NCBI GenBank assembly: GCA_020631135.1
Contig: JAHDHU010000004.1
Location: forward strand, 1-64,000
Length of the DNA: 64,000 nucleotides
Direction: 5' to 3'
Source: Saprospiraceae bacterium
GTDB lineage: Bacteria; Bacteroidota; Bacteroidia; Chitinophagales; Saprospiraceae
Both the position numbers and the translations under genes were made by a program. Within the stretch, counting starts at the first letter, position 1. Each line of letters begins with the position of its first letter. The notes beneath the pieces are model-generated. The model ran no database searches. It was not told the DNA's origin and was given only the letters and a program-made list of their open reading frames with translations. This document shows, one piece after another, positions 6,447 to 63,598 of the stretch.

Positions 6447-7442
6447 GTGATCGAAATTCTTGATAAAAAAGAAGCAACGAAACGAATAAATCGACTTGCC
6501 TCTGAAAAGACTCCATTTATTTTTATTATCGATTTCGAAATGGATAAATGTCAGGTTTATCCATTATCTAATATTCCGAAAGAAATCAAATATAACATCC
6601 GAGGAAATGGCAATTTAGAAGAAGTCTTAATTTCGGAAAACTATGCTTCGCTTGAATTTGAAGCAGTAAGTTTTGAAACCTATTCAAAAGGGTTTAAATA
6701 TGTGCAGGATGAAATTAATTATGGTAACTCATTTTTATTAAACCTTACCTATCCAAGCAAAGTCAAAAATAAGGTCAATTTAAACTCCTTGTTTCATCAA
6801 GCATATGCTCCTTATAAACTTTTAATTGAAAAAAAACTATTGGTGTTTTCACCTGAGTGTTTTGTAAAAATCGCAAATGGTACGATTTCATCGTTTCCAA
6901 TGAAGGGCACAATAAATGCTTCGGTACCAAACGCTAAATCACAAATTTTAGAAGATCAAAAAGAAAAAGCAGAACACTACACCATAGTTGATTTAATACG
7001 AAATGACTTAAGTATCGTTGCCAATAAAGTTTCAGTAGAAAATTTTAGATATATAGATTCAATACATAGTAAAAAAGGAGATCTTCTTCAAGTAAGCTCC
7101 AAGATAGTCGGTCAACTCCAATCAAATTACCTAGAAAAAATGGGGGACATTATTTTTGCCCTTCTACCTGCCGGAAGTATTTCGGGAGCACCAAAAAAGA
7201 AAACATTGGAAATCATCAAAGCTGCTGAAAATTACGAGCGAGCTTATTATACTGGAGTATTTGGGGTTTTCGATGGAGAAGCTTTGGATTCTTCGGTTAT
7301 GATTAGATGCATTCAAAACATAGGAGATGATTTGTTTTATTTTAGTGGTGGTGGAATCACACACAAAAGCAAACTTAAAGAGGAATATCAAGAACTAATT
7401 TCAAAAATTTATGTCCCAACTTTTCGAAACGATACAAATTAA
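6447..7442 (+). CDS. pabB: aminodeoxychorismate synthase component I (chorismate-binding)
   Basis: Converts chorismate and ammonia to 4-amino-4-deoxychorismate for folate synthesis. The chorismate-binding core is clear: PMKGT at 151-155 (with the Lys typical of PabB), DLIRNDL at 182-188, and PAGSISGAPKKKT at 241-253. At 331 residues it is the short form lacking the N-terminal tryptophan-binding-like extension, common in Bacteroidota. The start is GTG; no upstream ATG is available in frame before the preceding gene's stop. Its 3' end overlaps the aminotransferase-class-IV gene by 32 bp, so the two are translated together, which agrees with consecutive steps of p-aminobenzoate synthesis. No glutamine amidotransferase (pabA) lies in the window. 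Confidence 0.9.
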   Translation: MIEILDKKEATKRINRLASEKTPFIFIIDFEMDKCQVYPLSNIPKEIKYNIRGNGNLEEVLISENYASLEFEAVSFETYSKGFKYVQDEINYGNSFLLNLTYPSKVKNKVNLNSLFHQAYAPYKLLIEKKLLVFSPECFVKIANGTISSFPMKGTINASVPNAKSQILEDQKEKAEHYTIVDLIRNDLSIVANKVSVENFRYIDSIHSKKGDLLQVSSKIVGQLQSNYLEKMGDIIFALLPAGSISGAPKKKTLEIIKAAENYERAYYTGVFGVFDGEALDSSVMIRCIQNIGDDLFYFSGGGITHKSKLKEEYQELISKIYVPTFRNDTN

Positions 7443-8004
7443 AGATGGGAGCATCTTAAACCTGAAATATCATCAGGACAGGTTTGACTTTTCCAGAAAA
7501 CAATTGTTTCCAAATTTTCGAGACATCTCATTGGCCCAAAAAATCCATCTGCCTAGTTATTATCAAGTCGGACTCATAAAATGTCGAATTTCTTATTCAG
7601 AAAAAATCAATGAAATCGTATTCGAACACTATTCCATTCGACAAATAAAGTCTATAAAGAAGGTTCATCACGATAAAATCGATTACTCTTATAAATTTGA
7701 AAACAGAAAAATTCTCAAAACTCTTTTTAATGGTCGTCAAGGTCATCAAGAAATTCTAATCATCAAAAACGGCTTAGTTACAGATTGCTTTTATTATAAC
7801 GTAGCATTTTTCGATGGTCATAAATGGCTGACTCCTGAAAAGCCATTATTAAAAGGAACCAAACGGGCATTTTTACTGGATCACAACAAAATTTCCCTTG
7901 CTCCAATTTTAGAAAAAGACATACCCAACTTTCATAAGATTGCTTTATTCAATGCACTTAGTGATTTTGGTGAGGTACAATTAAGTGTCGATCAAATTTT
8001 TTGA
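7411..8004 (+). CDS. pabC: aminotransferase class IV, probable aminodeoxychorismate lyase
   Basis: A 197-residue PLP fold-type IV protein. NLKYHQDRF near residue 18-26 matches the phosphate-binding arginine region, Lys95 (YKFENRK) sits where the Schiff-base lysine is expected, and GTKRAFLL matches the C-terminal phosphate loop. The usual VTE...N signature reads VTDCFYYN, a conservative Glu-to-Asp change. Length is short for the family (usually 240-280), partly because the N-terminal region is compact. Position directly after and overlapping pabB argues for the ADC lyase that yields p-aminobenzoate; a branched-chain or D-amino acid aminotransferase is less likely. It converges on the next gene and overlaps its end by 24 bp. 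Confidence 0.75.
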   Translation: MSQLFETIQIKDGSILNLKYHQDRFDFSRKQLFPNFRDISLAQKIHLPSYYQVGLIKCRISYSEKINEIVFEHYSIRQIKSIKKVHHDKIDYSYKFENRKILKTLFNGRQGHQEILIIKNGLVTDCFYYNVAFFDGHKWLTPEKPLLKGTKRAFLLDHNKISLAPILEKDIPNFHKIALFNALSDFGEVQLSVDQIF

Positions 8005-9213
8005 GTCGATCTTAGAAACCAACAAGCAGAAAAACAAAAAGAAGCAAATACCGGTTGAACGCTCCAATTGAGTTTCAATAAAAAAGGTACTGAATACGAT
8101 GGCATACAATACTAATGTAAAAGAATTAGCATAAAGCTTTTCTTTAAAGAACGGAATCCAAATTCCCAACTGATAAAGAAAAAAACCTAACAAACCAGTC
8201 GATGTTAATGCAAACAAAAATTGATTATGAGGATAATTCAATTTGCCTTTGTAATCCTCAACATTGGCCAAATACCAATTTTCACAACTAGAAGATAAAT
8301 CACCCAGACCTGTACCCATAAGCATGTTTTCCCTAAACACTTCACAACCCATTTTGAGAGATAAGTACCGTCCCCCATCAGAATAATTAACCGCCTTACC
8401 TTCAGCCAACATCGTCAGATCCCAGACCGAATACCCAACCTTGTAAAAAAAACTCGGCACAAAGTAATAAGCGATTATTGGCGCAATAGCGCAAAGGATC
8501 ATACATCCAACCCCCTGCAAAATATTTTTAGTCAAATAAACCTGGCGAAAACTCAAAATAATCAAACCAATATACATAGTCACAATACCAGTTCGCACAG
8601 CAAGGATATGCATAAACATAAAAAGCAAGCCAGCTAAGCCCAAAGCCAACCACCTCATTTTGATAAAATATCTATCTTCTAAAAACAATATTACTCCAGT
8701 AATCGCAGCGAAGGAAAGTATTAAACTATAGCTGACATGATGAATTGGGGTAGCCAAGCTTTGTCCATGCTGAATCAGCTTATTGTAATAGTCCATATCT
8801 AAAACATACAACAGCATTACATGAGCAGCTGAAATAGACGAAATACTTAAAAAAGCGTAAATGATCAGATGAAAATTCTTCTTAGCTATTGGATTTAGAT
8901 GATAAAAAGCAATGGGCAATACTAAGAAAGGAAGCTTAAGTTGTAAGTGTTTAAACCATTCGCTAAGGTTATAAGAATTTATTCCACTCATCAGGATACT
9001 CAAAAAAACCAAGGTGTAAGCCAATATCCAAATACTACCTTTTTTAGAGAGATTTAGATCTATAGTTCTTCGAGTAGTTAGCCATTCGGCGAATGCCAAA
9101 AAAGCAAAGCCAAACAAAGTCAGTGACAAAACAAATTTTGAGTAAAAAAGAGCTACAAAAAAGACCAGACTTAATCCCACAAAAATCTTCTGCACTAAGT
9201 TGGTCGTTTTCAT
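7981..9213 (-). CDS. O-antigen ligase/polymerase-like membrane protein
   Basis: A polytopic 410-residue inner-membrane protein with roughly ten to twelve hydrophobic segments. A large extracytoplasmic loop lies in the C-terminal third, holding GTGLGDL and the PHNQFL motif typical of the Wzy_C (WaaL/Wzy) superfamily. Members transfer or polymerise undecaprenyl-linked glycans, or glycosylate proteins, at the periplasmic face. No other polysaccharide genes are adjacent, so the acceptor cannot be deduced, although a WecA-like initiating transferase is encoded near 54 kb. The 3' end overlaps that of pabC on the other strand. Confidence 0.8.
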   Translation of the reverse strand: MKTTNLVQKIFVGLSLVFFVALFYSKFVLSLTLFGFAFLAFAEWLTTRRTIDLNLSKKGSIWILAYTLVFLSILMSGINSYNLSEWFKHLQLKLPFLVLPIAFYHLNPIAKKNFHLIIYAFLSISSISAAHVMLLYVLDMDYYNKLIQHGQSLATPIHHVSYSLILSFAAITGVILFLEDRYFIKMRWLALGLAGLLFMFMHILAVRTGIVTMYIGLIILSFRQVYLTKNILQGVGCMILCAIAPIIAYYFVPSFFYKVGYSVWDLTMLAEGKAVNYSDGGRYLSLKMGCEVFRENMLMGTGLGDLSSSCENWYLANVEDYKGKLNYPHNQFLFALTSTGLLGFFLYQLGIWIPFFKEKLYANSFTLVLYAIVFSTFFIETQLERSTGICFFLFFCLLVSKIDSKNLIDT

Positions 9214-32767: not shown

Positions 32768-33043
32768 CTCATCATAATTTCGAGCTCCATAATACACCTT
32801 TCTTTAAAAAAATAAAAGATCGTGTATTGTTACAAATCCAATTTAATCAAGGTTGAATTATTTAATCAAAATGTTATCAGTCATTTTTCTTTTTGTTTTT
32901 GACATTCGTCGAATGTTTTGATACGTTCGACGATAGAGTTCCAAAACAGATAACCTTAACTTTTTTATAACGTGTTTATTATGTCAGTCAAAGGAACCTG
33001 CTTTAGAATACCAGGTATTTATAAAGTAGGCTTTTTTAAAAAT

Positions 33044-33069
33044 GGATCTTCAATGAATGTTGAAGATCC
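33044..33069 (-). terminator. 10-bp perfect hairpin, possible terminator
   Basis: GGATCTTCAA and TTGAAGATCC flank a six-base loop. On the minus strand the stem is followed by ATTTTTAAAA, on the plus strand by TTCTT, so it could end transcription in either direction, better on minus. It lies between the repeat region and the Kelch gene. Confidence 0.5.
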
Positions 33070-33310
33070 TTCTTAGAGAAAATTCGTAATCACCTACGAT
33101 CAAAATATAGTACTACAGACGAGCCTTTTGTCGCTTAGGGCGGCAACTGGCTTTCTAATGTAAAGGTCAACTTATAACTTAAAATATTTCTCCATGCGCT
33201 TTGCTTAGTCGAAATGGAAAAAGAAATAAAGATCTGCGTTAGGTAAATAAAAAATCAATCCATCTTAACTCAAAGGTTTGAGCTTAATTCCATTCACGAA
33301 AGTGAAATAA

Positions 33311-33590
33311 ATAATATCCGATTTTTTTTATCGTGGGCTCACTAACATGTTCATGAAGACTGGACAATTCCGATGAATTCTTGAATCGGAATTTAGAGCT
33401 GCTAAATGCAGCTCTAAAAGTGAAGGAACTGTGACCTCCGTGTCACAGCTAGAAATTATTTCTCTAAAGAATACTTTGTCCTCCGTGTCACTGCTAGAAA
33501 TATTTCTTTCAAGATTAATGCGACCTCCGAGTACAGCTAAGAAAAATATTAGTCTAAAATGAACTTAAAATAAGCTTTCAAGAAAGATTT
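33311..33590. repeat. copy 1 (degenerate) of a ~312-bp tandem repeat
   Basis: Shares with copy 2 the block from ACTAACATGTTCATGAAGAC to the TAGAGCTGCTAAATGCAGCTC hairpin and the three inner hairpin repeats beginning at about 33429, 33474 and 33518. The CTAACATG landmark is 313 bp from that of copy 2. Its terminator-like start has decayed: the A-run is gone and the stem is only four to five base pairs. Confidence 0.75.
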
Positions 33591-33901
33591 CCAAAACTCA
33601 TGGTTACTAAATTACTGGGCAAAAAAAAACCCCGATTTTTACATCGAGGGCTCGCTAACATGTTGATGAAGACTGAACGGTTCCGATGAATTCTTGAATC
33701 GGAATTTAGAGCTGCTAAATGCAGCTCTAAAAGTGAAGGAACTGTGACCTCCGAGTCACAGCAAGAAATATGTCTCTCAAGATTACTGTGACCTCCGAGT
33801 CACAGCAAGAAATATGTCTCTCAAGATTACTGTGGCCTCCGTGTCATAGCTAATATTAGTTTAAAATAAACATGAACTAAGCAGCATCATAGTAAGGTTT
33901 A
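33591..33901. repeat. copy 2 (most complete) of the ~312-bp tandem repeat
   Basis: Begins CCAAAACTCATGGTTACTAA and has, in order: an A9 run plus stem (33621-33650, a terminator when read on minus); a TTCCGAT/ATCGGAA hairpin (33681-33687/33698-33704); a perfect AGAGCTGC/GCAGCTCT hairpin (33708-33715/33721-33728); and an inner direct repeat of period 44 whose units start CTGTGACCTCCGAGTCACAG, itself a 7-bp hairpin, at 33742, 33786 and (degenerate) 33830. Because 44 is not a multiple of three, the inner repeat is not a coding repeat. Confidence 0.85.
33621..33650 (-). terminator. minus-strand intrinsic terminator inside repeat copy 2
   Basis: On the minus strand, CCCTCGAT and ATCGGGG pair with one bulged base and are followed by nine U residues. 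It is the equivalent of the stronger terminator in copy 3. Confidence 0.65.
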
Positions 33902-33990
33902 CCAAAACTCATGGTTATTAAATTACTGGGCAAAAAAAACCCTCGACGTTTCGGTCGAGGGCATCGCTAACATGTTGATGGGATAACTGA
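33902..33990. repeat. copy 3 (partial) of the ~312-bp tandem repeat
   Basis: Repeats the beginning of copy 2: CCAAAACTCATGGTTATTAA, the A-run plus hairpin, and GCTAACATGTTGATG, at offsets of 311-312 bp. After about 33990 the sequence no longer matches and leads into the 3' end of the large T9SS gene. Confidence 0.8.
33932..33961 (-). terminator. minus-strand intrinsic terminator inside repeat copy 3
   Basis: On the minus strand a perfect 8-bp stem (CCCTCGAC/GTCGAGGG, 33940-33947 with 33954-33961) with a six-base loop is followed by eight U residues. It is the first strong terminator after the large T9SS gene that ends at 34095. Confidence 0.82.
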
Positions 33991-34094
33991 ACGCTAAGAA
34001 ATTTATTCCTTATCAAAGCAAGTGAACCTTGCTTTGAAGAGAAGGCACCGAGCCATCAGGCTCGGGAATCATCCTTTAGAATAAATATCCTTAC

Positions 34095-36572
34095 CTAATG
34101 AACTATCAACTTGCCTGAAAAAACCTTTCTTTTAGAATTTACCATCCTTATCAAGTAAGTTCCTTCACTCAAATTGTGGCCTGATAAATCAAACCTCTTA
34201 TTTCGAATTTCATCATTTACCAATAATTTACCTATGACATTGTAAATTTCGATTTGCATATCATCTACTCCTTCAGCATCTACGTAAATAGTACTAGAAT
34301 TAGTAGCAGGATTTGGTGAAATAGAAACATTAATATTTTCTGGATTATCAATGGTGGATAACGAAGCGTCTTCTACGAAGTCAGTTCCTATTTCTAAAAA
34401 TGTTTGATTGGTGATAATGGGTTCATTAAAGTCAAAATAGATCGCTGCATCATTGTAAATAAGCTCTCCATCGGACAGATTTTCATTCATGTCAATTTGG
34501 AAACTTACAAAACCATGTGAAGCTGGTTCGTTGGTAAGACTATCCACAAGATTGATATCATTAAAAATAAACGAAACGGTTCTGTCTTCAACTACTACCT
34601 CGTGAGGATGGCTAAACGAAGTACGTTTAAAAGTACTCATGTCTAATAGTTCCGAAATGGTATCTACAACGATTACTCTAAATGCAGTATCTGTACCTGT
34701 ATTTTGAAAACGCACTTTATAATCAATGGTTTGATTTCTTTTTACGTAATGCTCATCTCCATAACCTGCAGGAATGGAAGCTTTATCATTAGGATCATAG
34801 GATCCGATATTTTCTTGACAATCGACATCTTCATAAGGTAAATAATCACTCATCGAAAAATCAGTAATAAAACCTGTACTGAAATTACCATCTTCATTTA
34901 CACCACAACCTTCAACAAAAGCGCTTGCCAATTCTGAGTAAGGAAAACCAAAAGATTGTTCGGCATTAAATCTCAATGTTTTACCATTTGCTGGAAAAAT
35001 ATAATCCGCAGATGATAATGCATTTAATTGGAAGTTTCCAACCTCTGTCATAACATCATCTTCTACCACGATAAATTCTGCTGAAGTCAACATGTTTTCA
35101 GTTCCAGTATTCCATATGGTAAACTTTACCTCGTCATTTGAGCATTCTGCAATTACATCAATGATTGGCCCTGTCCAACCTGCAAGAGCTGCTTGACATG
35201 GATCCTGTGGATAAATTGTCGCTATTGTGCAATGCGTTTCTCCAAGTTCAGCATCACAACTTACCTCTACTGACATTGTTATTGTTCCACACTCTAGTCC
35301 AACAGTACCAATGGTAAAAGTCACCAATTGACCATCAACTGTATAAGGATGAGAAGCATCCAACAAGATTAAATCTTCATCTAATTCTACTTCGATGTAA
35401 ACATTTTCAGCATCTGCTGTACCATAATTGCAATATTCTATGTGGTATGTATTTGGAAAACATCTTCTCAAAAATGGAGTGGATATATTGACTTCCATAA
35501 ACGAACAAGCGAGTTGAGCATTAGCCGTAAAATCCACAGTAGTTTGATCTCCAACATTTGGTAAACTAATCGCTATGTCATTATCACAAAATCCCCACAT
35601 AACTGAATATGGAAAAGCACTTACGGTATAATCTCCAGGAAGAACTACTCTTTTATAATTTCCATTTTCATCAGTGGATGTAAAATATTCCTCAGATCCG
35701 TTAAATATTCTTACTAACCAATTTTCTAAGTTGGTAGGATTATTAGGCGAACATCCTAGATCTTCATTTCGTGAAATATTACCGTCTACTTTTACTCCGT
35801 TGGCACTTACAGAGGCTGCAGAAGTATTTACACATATTAATTCTTGATCGGCATTCGCGAATTCTAATGCAATAGAACCAGCAACAAAGTTTTGCGAAAC
35901 ATCAACTTGGCTTGTTCCATTTTCTAGTACATCAAACTTTAAACTAAATAAAGTTTCGTTTGCATTAAAATCAGAATTTGTGCTGGTCGCATCGAACCAA
36001 ACCATATTGATCAAGCCCGGTTCGAATTCGTTTGTATTTGTAGTTCCTACTGTAGTAACGGCACCTGGCAAGAGTGCATCAAAAGCCATCATTGTTGGAT
36101 CATACTCCAAAGTCCACTGCAAGGAACCAATGGATTGGTCATTTTGCAATACTACATCAACGATAATCTCGTCAACTCCTACATCATTGACAAAATCGAT
36201 ATAGGCTGTATCAACACAACTGGTAACAAAAACATCTAAAATACCCCAACATGAATTGGAGCTTACTGGATCAGTTACTGTGTATTGGAAAGTTGTGTGG
36301 TTAAATAATTGTATCGTCAATGGATCGCCGCCTGAAAAAACATTAGTTGGATCATCTTGATCCTCTAGAGAAATTTCTAATCCTGTTATGGCAGGACCTT
36401 CTAACAACATATCTGCAGTTACAGTAATCCATCCGTCTTGGGTGGTAGTTGCATTTATTTGTTGGTTACAAATTAGAGTTTGACTTTTTATAGCAGGAAC
36501 GCAAGCCAAAAACATACAAACTGTAAGTAAAATGTGGTGGAACGTTTTCATTTTTTTCTTTTTCGTGTTCAC
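34095..36572 (-). CDS. large T9SS-secreted protein with cohesin-like and DUF7619 domains
   Basis: 825 residues, signal peptide near residues 8-30 (HHILLTVCMFLACVPAIKSQ). Residues ~120-255 look like a cohesin-type domain (GVDEIIVDVVLQNDQSIGSL, FSLKFDVLENG), ~260-345 a carboxypeptidase-regulatory/Cna-B-like repeat (STDENGNYKRVVLPGDYTV), and ~585-740 a DUF7619/DUF11-like domain beginning GSYDPNDKASIPAGYG and YKVRFQNTGTDTAF. The C-terminus is a type A T9SS sorting domain (NVSISPNPATNSSTIYV ... EGTYLIRMVNSKRKVFSGKL). It is a cell-surface or secreted protein of unknown role. Its 3' flank is the repeat region. Confidence 0.85.
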   Translation of the reverse strand: MNTKKKKMKTFHHILLTVCMFLACVPAIKSQTLICNQQINATTTQDGWITVTADMLLEGPAITGLEISLEDQDDPTNVFSGGDPLTIQLFNHTTFQYTVTDPVSSNSCWGILDVFVTSCVDTAYIDFVNDVGVDEIIVDVVLQNDQSIGSLQWTLEYDPTMMAFDALLPGAVTTVGTTNTNEFEPGLINMVWFDATSTNSDFNANETLFSLKFDVLENGTSQVDVSQNFVAGSIALEFANADQELICVNTSAASVSANGVKVDGNISRNEDLGCSPNNPTNLENWLVRIFNGSEEYFTSTDENGNYKRVVLPGDYTVSAFPYSVMWGFCDNDIAISLPNVGDQTTVDFTANAQLACSFMEVNISTPFLRRCFPNTYHIEYCNYGTADAENVYIEVELDEDLILLDASHPYTVDGQLVTFTIGTVGLECGTITMSVEVSCDAELGETHCTIATIYPQDPCQAALAGWTGPIIDVIAECSNDEVKFTIWNTGTENMLTSAEFIVVEDDVMTEVGNFQLNALSSADYIFPANGKTLRFNAEQSFGFPYSELASAFVEGCGVNEDGNFSTGFITDFSMSDYLPYEDVDCQENIGSYDPNDKASIPAGYGDEHYVKRNQTIDYKVRFQNTGTDTAFRVIVVDTISELLDMSTFKRTSFSHPHEVVVEDRTVSFIFNDINLVDSLTNEPASHGFVSFQIDMNENLSDGELIYNDAAIYFDFNEPIITNQTFLEIGTDFVEDASLSTIDNPENINVSISPNPATNSSTIYVDAEGVDDMQIEIYNVIGKLLVNDEIRNKRFDLSGHNLSEGTYLIRMVNSKRKVFSGKLIVH

Positions 36573-62668: not shown

Positions 62669-63598
62669 TTATCCTTCCAATTTAAATTTTACTGGTAAAG
62701 TATATTGAACTTTCACTGCTCTTCCTCGTTGCTTTCCTGGTGTCCATTTTTGCCCCATGTTGTTCATTGACTCAACAACTTTCTGAGCAGCAGCACCTGT
62801 TCCTGCTCCAGGATCTCTCACTAAGTTAACCTCAGAAACACTTCCGTCTCTTCCAACTACAAACTGTACAACTGCCATTCCTTCTACACCGTTTTCACGC
62901 GCGATTGCTGGATACTTCAAATTTTTATAAATATATTGAAGTAGTTTTTCATCAGCACACTTCTTCTTTTCTGCCTCACTTCCTCCTGCATTTTCGCAAC
63001 CTGGAAATCTAGGCATTTGCTCAACCACTTTAAATATTTCTTCCTCTTCTGGAGGCGGTGGTGGTGGAGGTGGTGGCGGTGGAGGTGGTGCCTCTTCTTC
63101 GACCACTGGTGCATCTTCTATAACTGTTTCTTCTTCCACAGTCATATCTTCGAATACTGGTTCTTCTTCTTCAATTATTTCTTCTTCTGGTACTTCCTCA
63201 ATCACCGGAGGTGGTGGTGGCGGTGGAGGTGGTGGTGGTTCGGCAGTTCTTGGTGGTTCAATTTCAATTTCTTCATCTAATTCTAATGCACCCTCAGGGA
63301 TAAAGATTTCTTCATCTACTGTAGTCCAACTAAATGAAAATAAAACCAAAGCTAAAGCTGCAGCTAAACCATATCTAAATACAGATCTAGATAATCCGAA
63401 GGCATTTGCTTCAGGATATTTACTTCTTCCTTGTAATGGAGACTTCCATTGGTGATCTCTATATTTTTCAGTCAACTCATTTGCTGAAAGGCTGCTATAT
63501 TTTCTTCTAAAAAAGAAAATGATCCCCAACGTAAGCAACACCAAAAAAACAAGCAACATCAGCAAACCACTTCCTGAAATAGCTATATCATTTAACAT
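62669..63598 (-). CDS. tonB: energy transducer TonB
   Basis: 309 residues. Two membrane helices: one at ~12-30 (LLMLLVFLVLLTLGIIFFFR) and one at ~75-95 (YGLAAALALVLFSFSW), with an intervening cytoplasmic loop. A periplasmic Pro/Glu linker with two poly-proline runs (~118-130 and ~168-185) leads to a C-terminal TonB domain (~215-309, RFPGCEN, YPAIARENGVEGMAVVQFVV, LPVKFKLEG). It passes proton-motive energy to TonB-dependent receptors such as the one at 22-25 kb. The extra N-terminal helix before the usual anchor is unusual. ExbB/ExbD are not in the window. Confidence 0.93.
   Translation of the reverse strand: MLNDIAISGSGLLMLLVFLVLLTLGIIFFFRRKYSSLSANELTEKYRDHQWKSPLQGRSKYPEANAFGLSRSVFRYGLAAALALVLFSFSWTTVDEEIFIPEGALELDEEIEIEPPRTAEPPPPPPPPPPPVIEEVPEEEIIEEEEPVFEDMTVEEETVIEDAPVVEEEAPPPPPPPPPPPPPEEEEIFKVVEQMPRFPGCENAGGSEAEKKKCADEKLLQYIYKNLKYPAIARENGVEGMAVVQFVVGRDGSVSEVNLVRDPGAGTGAAAQKVVESMNNMGQKWTPGKQRGRAVKVQYTLPVKFKLEG

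Follow-up and report, generated by a model that had tools for sequence, protein, structure and literature searches.

Integron attC sites are folded DNA that is recognised by its structure, and their stems are variable. Among short palindromic repeats, the GTAG and CGTC REPs have been defined, and G-T pairing is frequent in the GTAG repeats (PMC3733652). The CGTC repeats, which occur in Bacteroidetes among other phyla, have no dedicated transposase (PMC3733652), and REPINs have been described together with their RAYTs (PMC3116915). The family described here bears on how REP-like palindromes spread without a RAYT: it offers many copies, two sites at which filled and empty DNA can be aligned to the base, and genomes that contain no Y1 transposase. 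A literature search, with most subscription journals outside its cover, returned no paper on such repeats in Saprospiraceae.

The starting point was an array in a window of 64,000 nucleotides from a Saprospiraceae bacterium (assembly GCA_020631135.1, contig JAHDHU010000004.1, positions 1 to 64,000). This array probably consists of three clustered copies of a short non-coding element that is scattered through genomes of the family and is best read as REP/BIME-like non-autonomous mobile DNA.

Structure of the Array and Plan of the Element

Between the two flanking genes (32797–34095), no ORF of 60 aa or more is present, in agreement with the initial annotation of the region as non-coding. The repeat at 33311–33990 has the structure first attributed to it: units of 312/313 bp with hairpins, a 44-bp inner repeat present three times, and minus-strand terminators. 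The units at 33309–33621 (313 bp) and 33622–33933 (312 bp) are 83.7% identical over 307 aligned positions, and in each of them the 44-bp hairpin repeat occurs in three copies, with TRF scores of 199 (copy 2) and 146 (copy 1). Hairpin H2 of the array, TTTAGAGCTGCATTTAGCAGCTCTAAA, is perfect. Minus-strand terminators lie at 33932–33962 and 33621–33651; the terminator copy at 33313–33338 has lost its T-run, and the same unit 1 has lost two of its three H1 hairpins, so that the decay of this copy was correctly recognised. The third tail and terminator (33932–33983) belong to an additional, diverged three-hairpin core, U3 (33984–34065), which had been overlooked beside the T9SS gene.

Comparison of the array with its matches in congeners gave the plan of the element on the minus strand: H1, linker TTCCYTCACT, H2, H3 and tail CCRTTCAGTYAT. 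H1 mostly has a 7-bp stem and a 6-nt loop, ACGGAG or similar; H2 has a stem of 8–11 bp and the loop ATTTA; H3 is a small hairpin with a short variable stem. The three hairpins of the core are perfect palindromes; their stems vary from copy to copy yet stay palindromic, while loops and linkers are constant. Copies with both ends readable measure 87–125 bp, the 5' end being subtype-dependent and well defined for some subtypes only. R1, a covariance model of H1-linker-H2, was used for the copy counts and for the scores below. The features of the locus are as follows.

34095–36572, minus strand: upstream gene for an 825-aa secreted protein with cohesin-like, DUF7619 and T9SS sorting (Por_Secre_tail) domains
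34048–34065, minus strand: core U3 (oldest, diverged), hairpin H1 CCGAGCCTGATGGCTCGG; R1 match 34010–34065, 40.8 bits
34038–34047, minus strand: U3 conserved linker TGCCTTCTCT
34013–34037, minus strand: U3 hairpin H2 TCAAAGCAAGGTTCACTTGCTTTGA, of a subtype shared with the G002 copy at the orthologous site
33995–34012, minus strand: U3 hairpin H3, identified by eye
33984–33994, minus strand: U3 tail GCGTTCAGTTA, with which the inserted element ends on its 3' side; its junction with the 3' UTR is empty in G003
33962–33983, minus strand: 3' UTR native to the T9SS gene, TCCCATCAACATGTTAGCGATG; G003, which lacks the element, has it immediately after the stop codon
33932–33962, minus strand: intrinsic terminator 3, the gene's own
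33830–33849, minus strand: unit 2 H1 repeat, outermost, CTATGACACGGAGGCCACAG
33786–33805, minus strand: unit 2 H1 repeat, middle, CTGTGACTCGGAGGTCACAG
33742–33761, minus strand: core U2 H1, the repeat copy that adjoins the linker and H2; R1 83.7 bits
33732–33741, minus strand: U2 linker TTCCTTCACT
33705–33731, minus strand: U2 hairpin H2, loop ATTTA
33681–33704, minus strand: U2 hairpin H3
33651–33680, minus strand: U2 tail CCGTTCAGTCT and duplicated 3' UTR TCATCAACATGTTAGCGAG
33621–33651, minus strand: intrinsic terminator 2, duplicated
33519–33536, minus strand: unit 1 H1 repeat, decayed
33474–33493, minus strand: unit 1 H1 repeat, decayed
33429–33448, minus strand: core U1 H1, intact; R1 86.4 bits
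33419–33428, minus strand: U1 linker TTCCTTCACT
33392–33418, minus strand: U1 hairpin H2, identical to that of U2
33368–33391, minus strand: U1 hairpin H3
33338–33367, minus strand: U1 tail and duplicated 3' UTR
33313–33338, minus strand: terminator 1, decayed, without T-run

Elsewhere in the window, a 15-bp tandem repeat, TGGAGGTGGTGGCGG, is present in 2.7 copies at 63050–63090.

A Dispersed Family in Saprospiraceae

The family is dispersed and, as far as sampled, confined to Saprospiraceae. A BLASTN search with the array found only itself in its own genome, and short matches in congeners. With R1, 6 copies were found in the same genome and 2, 17 and 4 in three congeners, at least 74 in another genus of the family (G016) and at least 29, 8 and 5 in three genomes of a further one, g51; the family member G088 has 14 or more (14 candidates scored); since the genomes are draft MAGs in which repeats often break contigs, all of these counts are minima. 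Among 395 genomes of the class, R1 matched at E ≤ 0.001 in three Saprospiraceae genomes only, all convincing matches among about 500 relatives were from Saprospiraceae, and a pattern scan of named genomes yielded real members only in MAGs of this family. Pattern matches outside it (Labilibacter, Clostridia, viral contigs) lacked the structure or scored near chance. The initial annotation had tied a local neutral duplication to a lack of expression and of related copies. An ordinary duplication of this kind, of no wider significance, is extremely unlikely: the 312-bp and 44-bp tandem copies of the window are indeed local duplications, but the duplicated unit itself belongs to a dispersed family with numerous related copies.

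Within a single genome, the stems are more diverse than expected for a recently spread element, G016 and G088 being the exceptions. Amplification of H1 is a habit of the family, as it recurs with five 50-bp units in L064 and with units of about 103 bp in L023. The five tandem H1-plus-spacer units of L064 (G002:C21, 4180–4427) have a CRISPR-like look, but the short end of the contig carries no cas genes close by. In G016 (L085, L096, L099, L101), two to four tandem copies of the tail GCACCATTCAGTCAT lie downstream of H2-H3. Another dispersed palindrome, GAGTCATGCTGAATTTATTTCAGCATCTGGG, occurs with variants in L075 (G053:C142) at 7420–7450, 7600–7625, 7910–7970 and 8350–8365, where it is interleaved with three-hairpin elements; it resembles CGTC-type REPs.

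RNA or DNA Behind the Covarying Stems

One of the two initial interpretations saw in the array a series of minus-strand small-RNA genes that each end in a terminator of their own. Units 2 and 3 do end in terminators, the hairpin loops and the linker are conserved, and the unit folds 3.8 sd below shuffles on the minus strand; however, the plus strand folds as well (3.55 sd below). Moreover, the array contains no Bacteroidota-type promoter (TTTG-N17-23-TAnnTTTG) and its sigma-70-like sites are below shuffle level. The terminators are part of the 3' UTR of the neighbouring gene and are missing at most other copies of the element. As the annotation had stated, no known RNA family is recognised (best Rfam match 24.4 bits, 42 required). 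Copies are found in either orientation: relative to the nearest upstream gene, 22 are sense and 23 antisense, and relative to the downstream gene the numbers are 25 and 28, which reveals no orientation bias. Together with the stems, which are free of wobble, these observations make small-RNA genes very unlikely.

The stems covary strongly and are maintained as exact Watson-Crick complements. In 86 distinct rows, all 18 stem pairs have two-sided changes and 96.1% of the cells are paired, compared with 60% in shuffles, a pattern that would ordinarily point to an RNA. An RNA helix tolerates G-U but not A-C, and selection on the opposite strand would give the reverse. Here, G-T makes up 1.5% of stem pairs versus 8.3% (21/252) in tRNA stems from the same loci, a small control of 12 sequences, with related element copies, e.g., within clusters, not being independent; the low value is conservative because the R1 search model favours G-U. 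The better-filled rows contain 16 G-T and 17 A-C pairs, a symmetry which means that selection for an RNA helix acts on neither of the strands, and the covarying stems give no sign of G-U wobble tolerance on either strand. The hairpins thus look like DNA structures and not like small-RNA genes. Their perfect stems could be kept without any protein, by template-switch correction of palindromes. More generally, the count of G-T versus A-C is a simple test of whether RNA or DNA lies behind covarying stems, and may help to avoid the annotation of such repeats as small RNAs.

Three RNA-based candidates were rejected. The H1 loop fits the ANGGAN hexaloop of a CsrA sponge (CsrB/RsmZ type), but CsrA (PF02599) was found in 0 of 101 relatives. 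An H-type pseudoknot formed by GGAG of the H1 loop with UUCC of the linker is, judged by eye, geometrically unlikely, as no loop nucleotides are left to span the 7-bp stem, and the H1-H3 loop-loop kissing seen in L026 (CUCCG) is missing from other copies.

Filled and Empty Sites

The existence of an empty orthologous site and of uninterrupted paralogs shows, at the level of sequence, that the element inserts into DNA. The T9SS gene has an ortholog in G003, the closest relative, which is 65% identical over the C-terminal 501 aa; the orthologs in G002 and G001 reach 56% and 49%. In G003, the gene ends with GTTCATTAA, followed directly by TCCCATCAACATGTTAGCGATG and the terminator, and the element is absent. 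In the window, GTTCATTAG is followed by the element, which ends in CGTTCAGTTA, and only then by TCCCATCAACATGTTAGCGATG and the terminator; the element therefore sits behind the stop codon and ahead of the 3' UTR and terminator that are native to the gene. The proposal that the array is a duplicated 3' UTR of the T9SS gene was half right: CATCAACATGTTAGCGA and the terminator are native to this gene, given the element-free ortholog, and were duplicated with the hairpins, but the hairpins themselves are an inserted element.

The G002 ortholog carries elements at the same place as the window and the G001 ortholog carries none. A point against our reading is that a site filled in the window and in G002 and empty in the closer G003 implies either that an element was lost precisely or that insertion took place twice. 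The position between stop codon and terminator, and the H2 subtype shared by the window and G002 at the orthologous site, would fit a functional RNA element at the transcript end of the T9SS gene, for example an mRNA stabiliser or a processing signal. Such a function is nevertheless unlikely: the element is missing in the G003 and G001 orthologs, its copies elsewhere have no preference for sense 3' ends, and its stems lack wobble.

In genome G053, which belongs to another genus, a serine recombinase gene is disrupted by a copy of 87 bp, and the paralogs of this gene on contigs C24 and C27 have no such interruption. The filled site reads TCTGCTTCTGG, 87 bp, ACAT and the paralogs read TCTGCTTCTGG, GCGATTGGTGTTTC, ACAT; 14 bp of target were lost and nothing was duplicated. 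The ends of this copy, CTACAACCCAT and TTCGGTCTT, are not inverted repeats; one G088 subtype has a weak 9-bp resemblance between its ends. No target-site duplication is evident at the T9SS site or at the serine recombinase site. The two interrupted copies (L076, L077; G053:C50 and C124) differ at 1 of 87 element bases and the aligned 347-bp stretch is only 91% identical overall. Divergence is thus far lower inside the element than around it, which suggests constraint or gene conversion inside these pseudogene copies. A tyrosine recombinase pseudogene harbours two more copies of the element. At four sites in G088 whose outer flanks are unrelated, one subtype recurs without any difference between H1 and tail and so forms a discrete unit of about 120 bp.

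Genomic Sites and Candidate Mobilisers

Eleven-mers derived from tRNA genes lie near 12 of 66 copies, compared with 4% of random positions in the same loci. Tails abut fragments of tRNA-Val (L068, L074) and tRNA-Cys (L179, L192) without a gap, and in L025 a tail directly meets a tRNA 3' end, in L038 the 5' part of tRNA-Asp; other tails stop at a convergent stop codon. By eye, the tail looks similar to the T9SS target GTTCATTAAT and to GTTCRANTCC, the consensus of the T-loop. Because tails resemble their targets, the 3' tail may be the joining site.

Tyrosine integrases of 404–425 aa start 209–477 bp from a copy in three congeners (L025, L029, L063), two of them with neighbours typical of integrative elements (excisionase-like HTH, VirE/primase-like). 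As mobilisers the adjacent integrases of G002:C32, G001:C12 and G000:C84 were rejected, being different proteins of separate integrative elements; for the same reason, their proximity to the copies probably reflects a shared preference for tRNA sites.

Movement by a RAYT that was missed or lost would make the element a REP or REPIN. The copies are short, palindromic, extragenic and clustered and lack target duplications, as REPs do, and RAYTs are common in the order. However, the Y1_Tnp domain is present in 67 of 101 relatives and in none of the six element-rich genomes checked (G000–G003, G016, G053), and GTAG precedes H1 in only 1 of 67 distinct copies, which makes this origin very unlikely. 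The CGTC tag was found in 0 of the same number of copies and its complement GACG in 1/67. An integron attC origin was rejected, since none of 12 carrier genomes has an integron integrase above the TIGR02249 cut-off; other tyrosine recombinases are present. Spread by a reverse transcriptase was likewise rejected, no RVT_1 being found in five carriers (G000, G002, G003, G005, G016).

For the window, we infer that an element first entered between the T9SS stop codon and the gene's own terminator, and that a second element with another stem type inserted at a duplicated 3' UTR. A 312-bp segment of hairpins, 3' UTR and terminator would then have doubled in tandem, and H1 would have multiplied in steps of 44 bp before the outermost copy decayed. 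By analogy with REP systems, the element would be recognised and moved as folded DNA, probably single-stranded, by an enzyme that acts in trans and is presumably not a Y1/RAYT transposase. It is possible, although doubtful, that the family represents a new class of non-autonomous mobile DNA, built of three single-strand-forming palindromes in a fixed order and inserted site-specifically by a non-Y1/HUH enzyme; the site-specific part of this proposal refers to the tail resembling its target and to the preference for tRNA and gene ends.

Comparison with Known Systems

Like MITEs and RUs, the element is non-coding, about 100 bp long and dispersed, within genes as well as in intergenic DNA; unlike in them, neither terminal inverted repeats nor a duplicated target is evident at the two sites for which an exact reading was obtained. 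With attC sites it shares folded DNA and variable stems, but the 12 carriers checked have no integron integrase above the cut-off and no gene cassettes were seen between its copies in the loci read. The CGTC REPs are similar in being palindromic repeats without a known dedicated transposase and in counting Bacteroidetes among their hosts (PMC3733652). However, they consist of one 8–9-bp stem with a 4–5-nt loop and rarely form clusters, whereas the element has three hairpins, no CGTC, and frequent clusters. From GTAG REPs, in which G-T pairs are frequent (PMC3733652), it differs by the rarity of such pairs in its stems, by the missing GTAG tag and by the missing Y1 transposase in the six carriers checked. 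The closest likeness in our reading is to REPs, BIMEs and REPINs in general: short extragenic palindromes with many copies per genome, spacer mosaics and tandem clusters, and variable stems with constant loops, from which the element is set apart by its three different hairpins in a fixed order, joined by conserved linkers.
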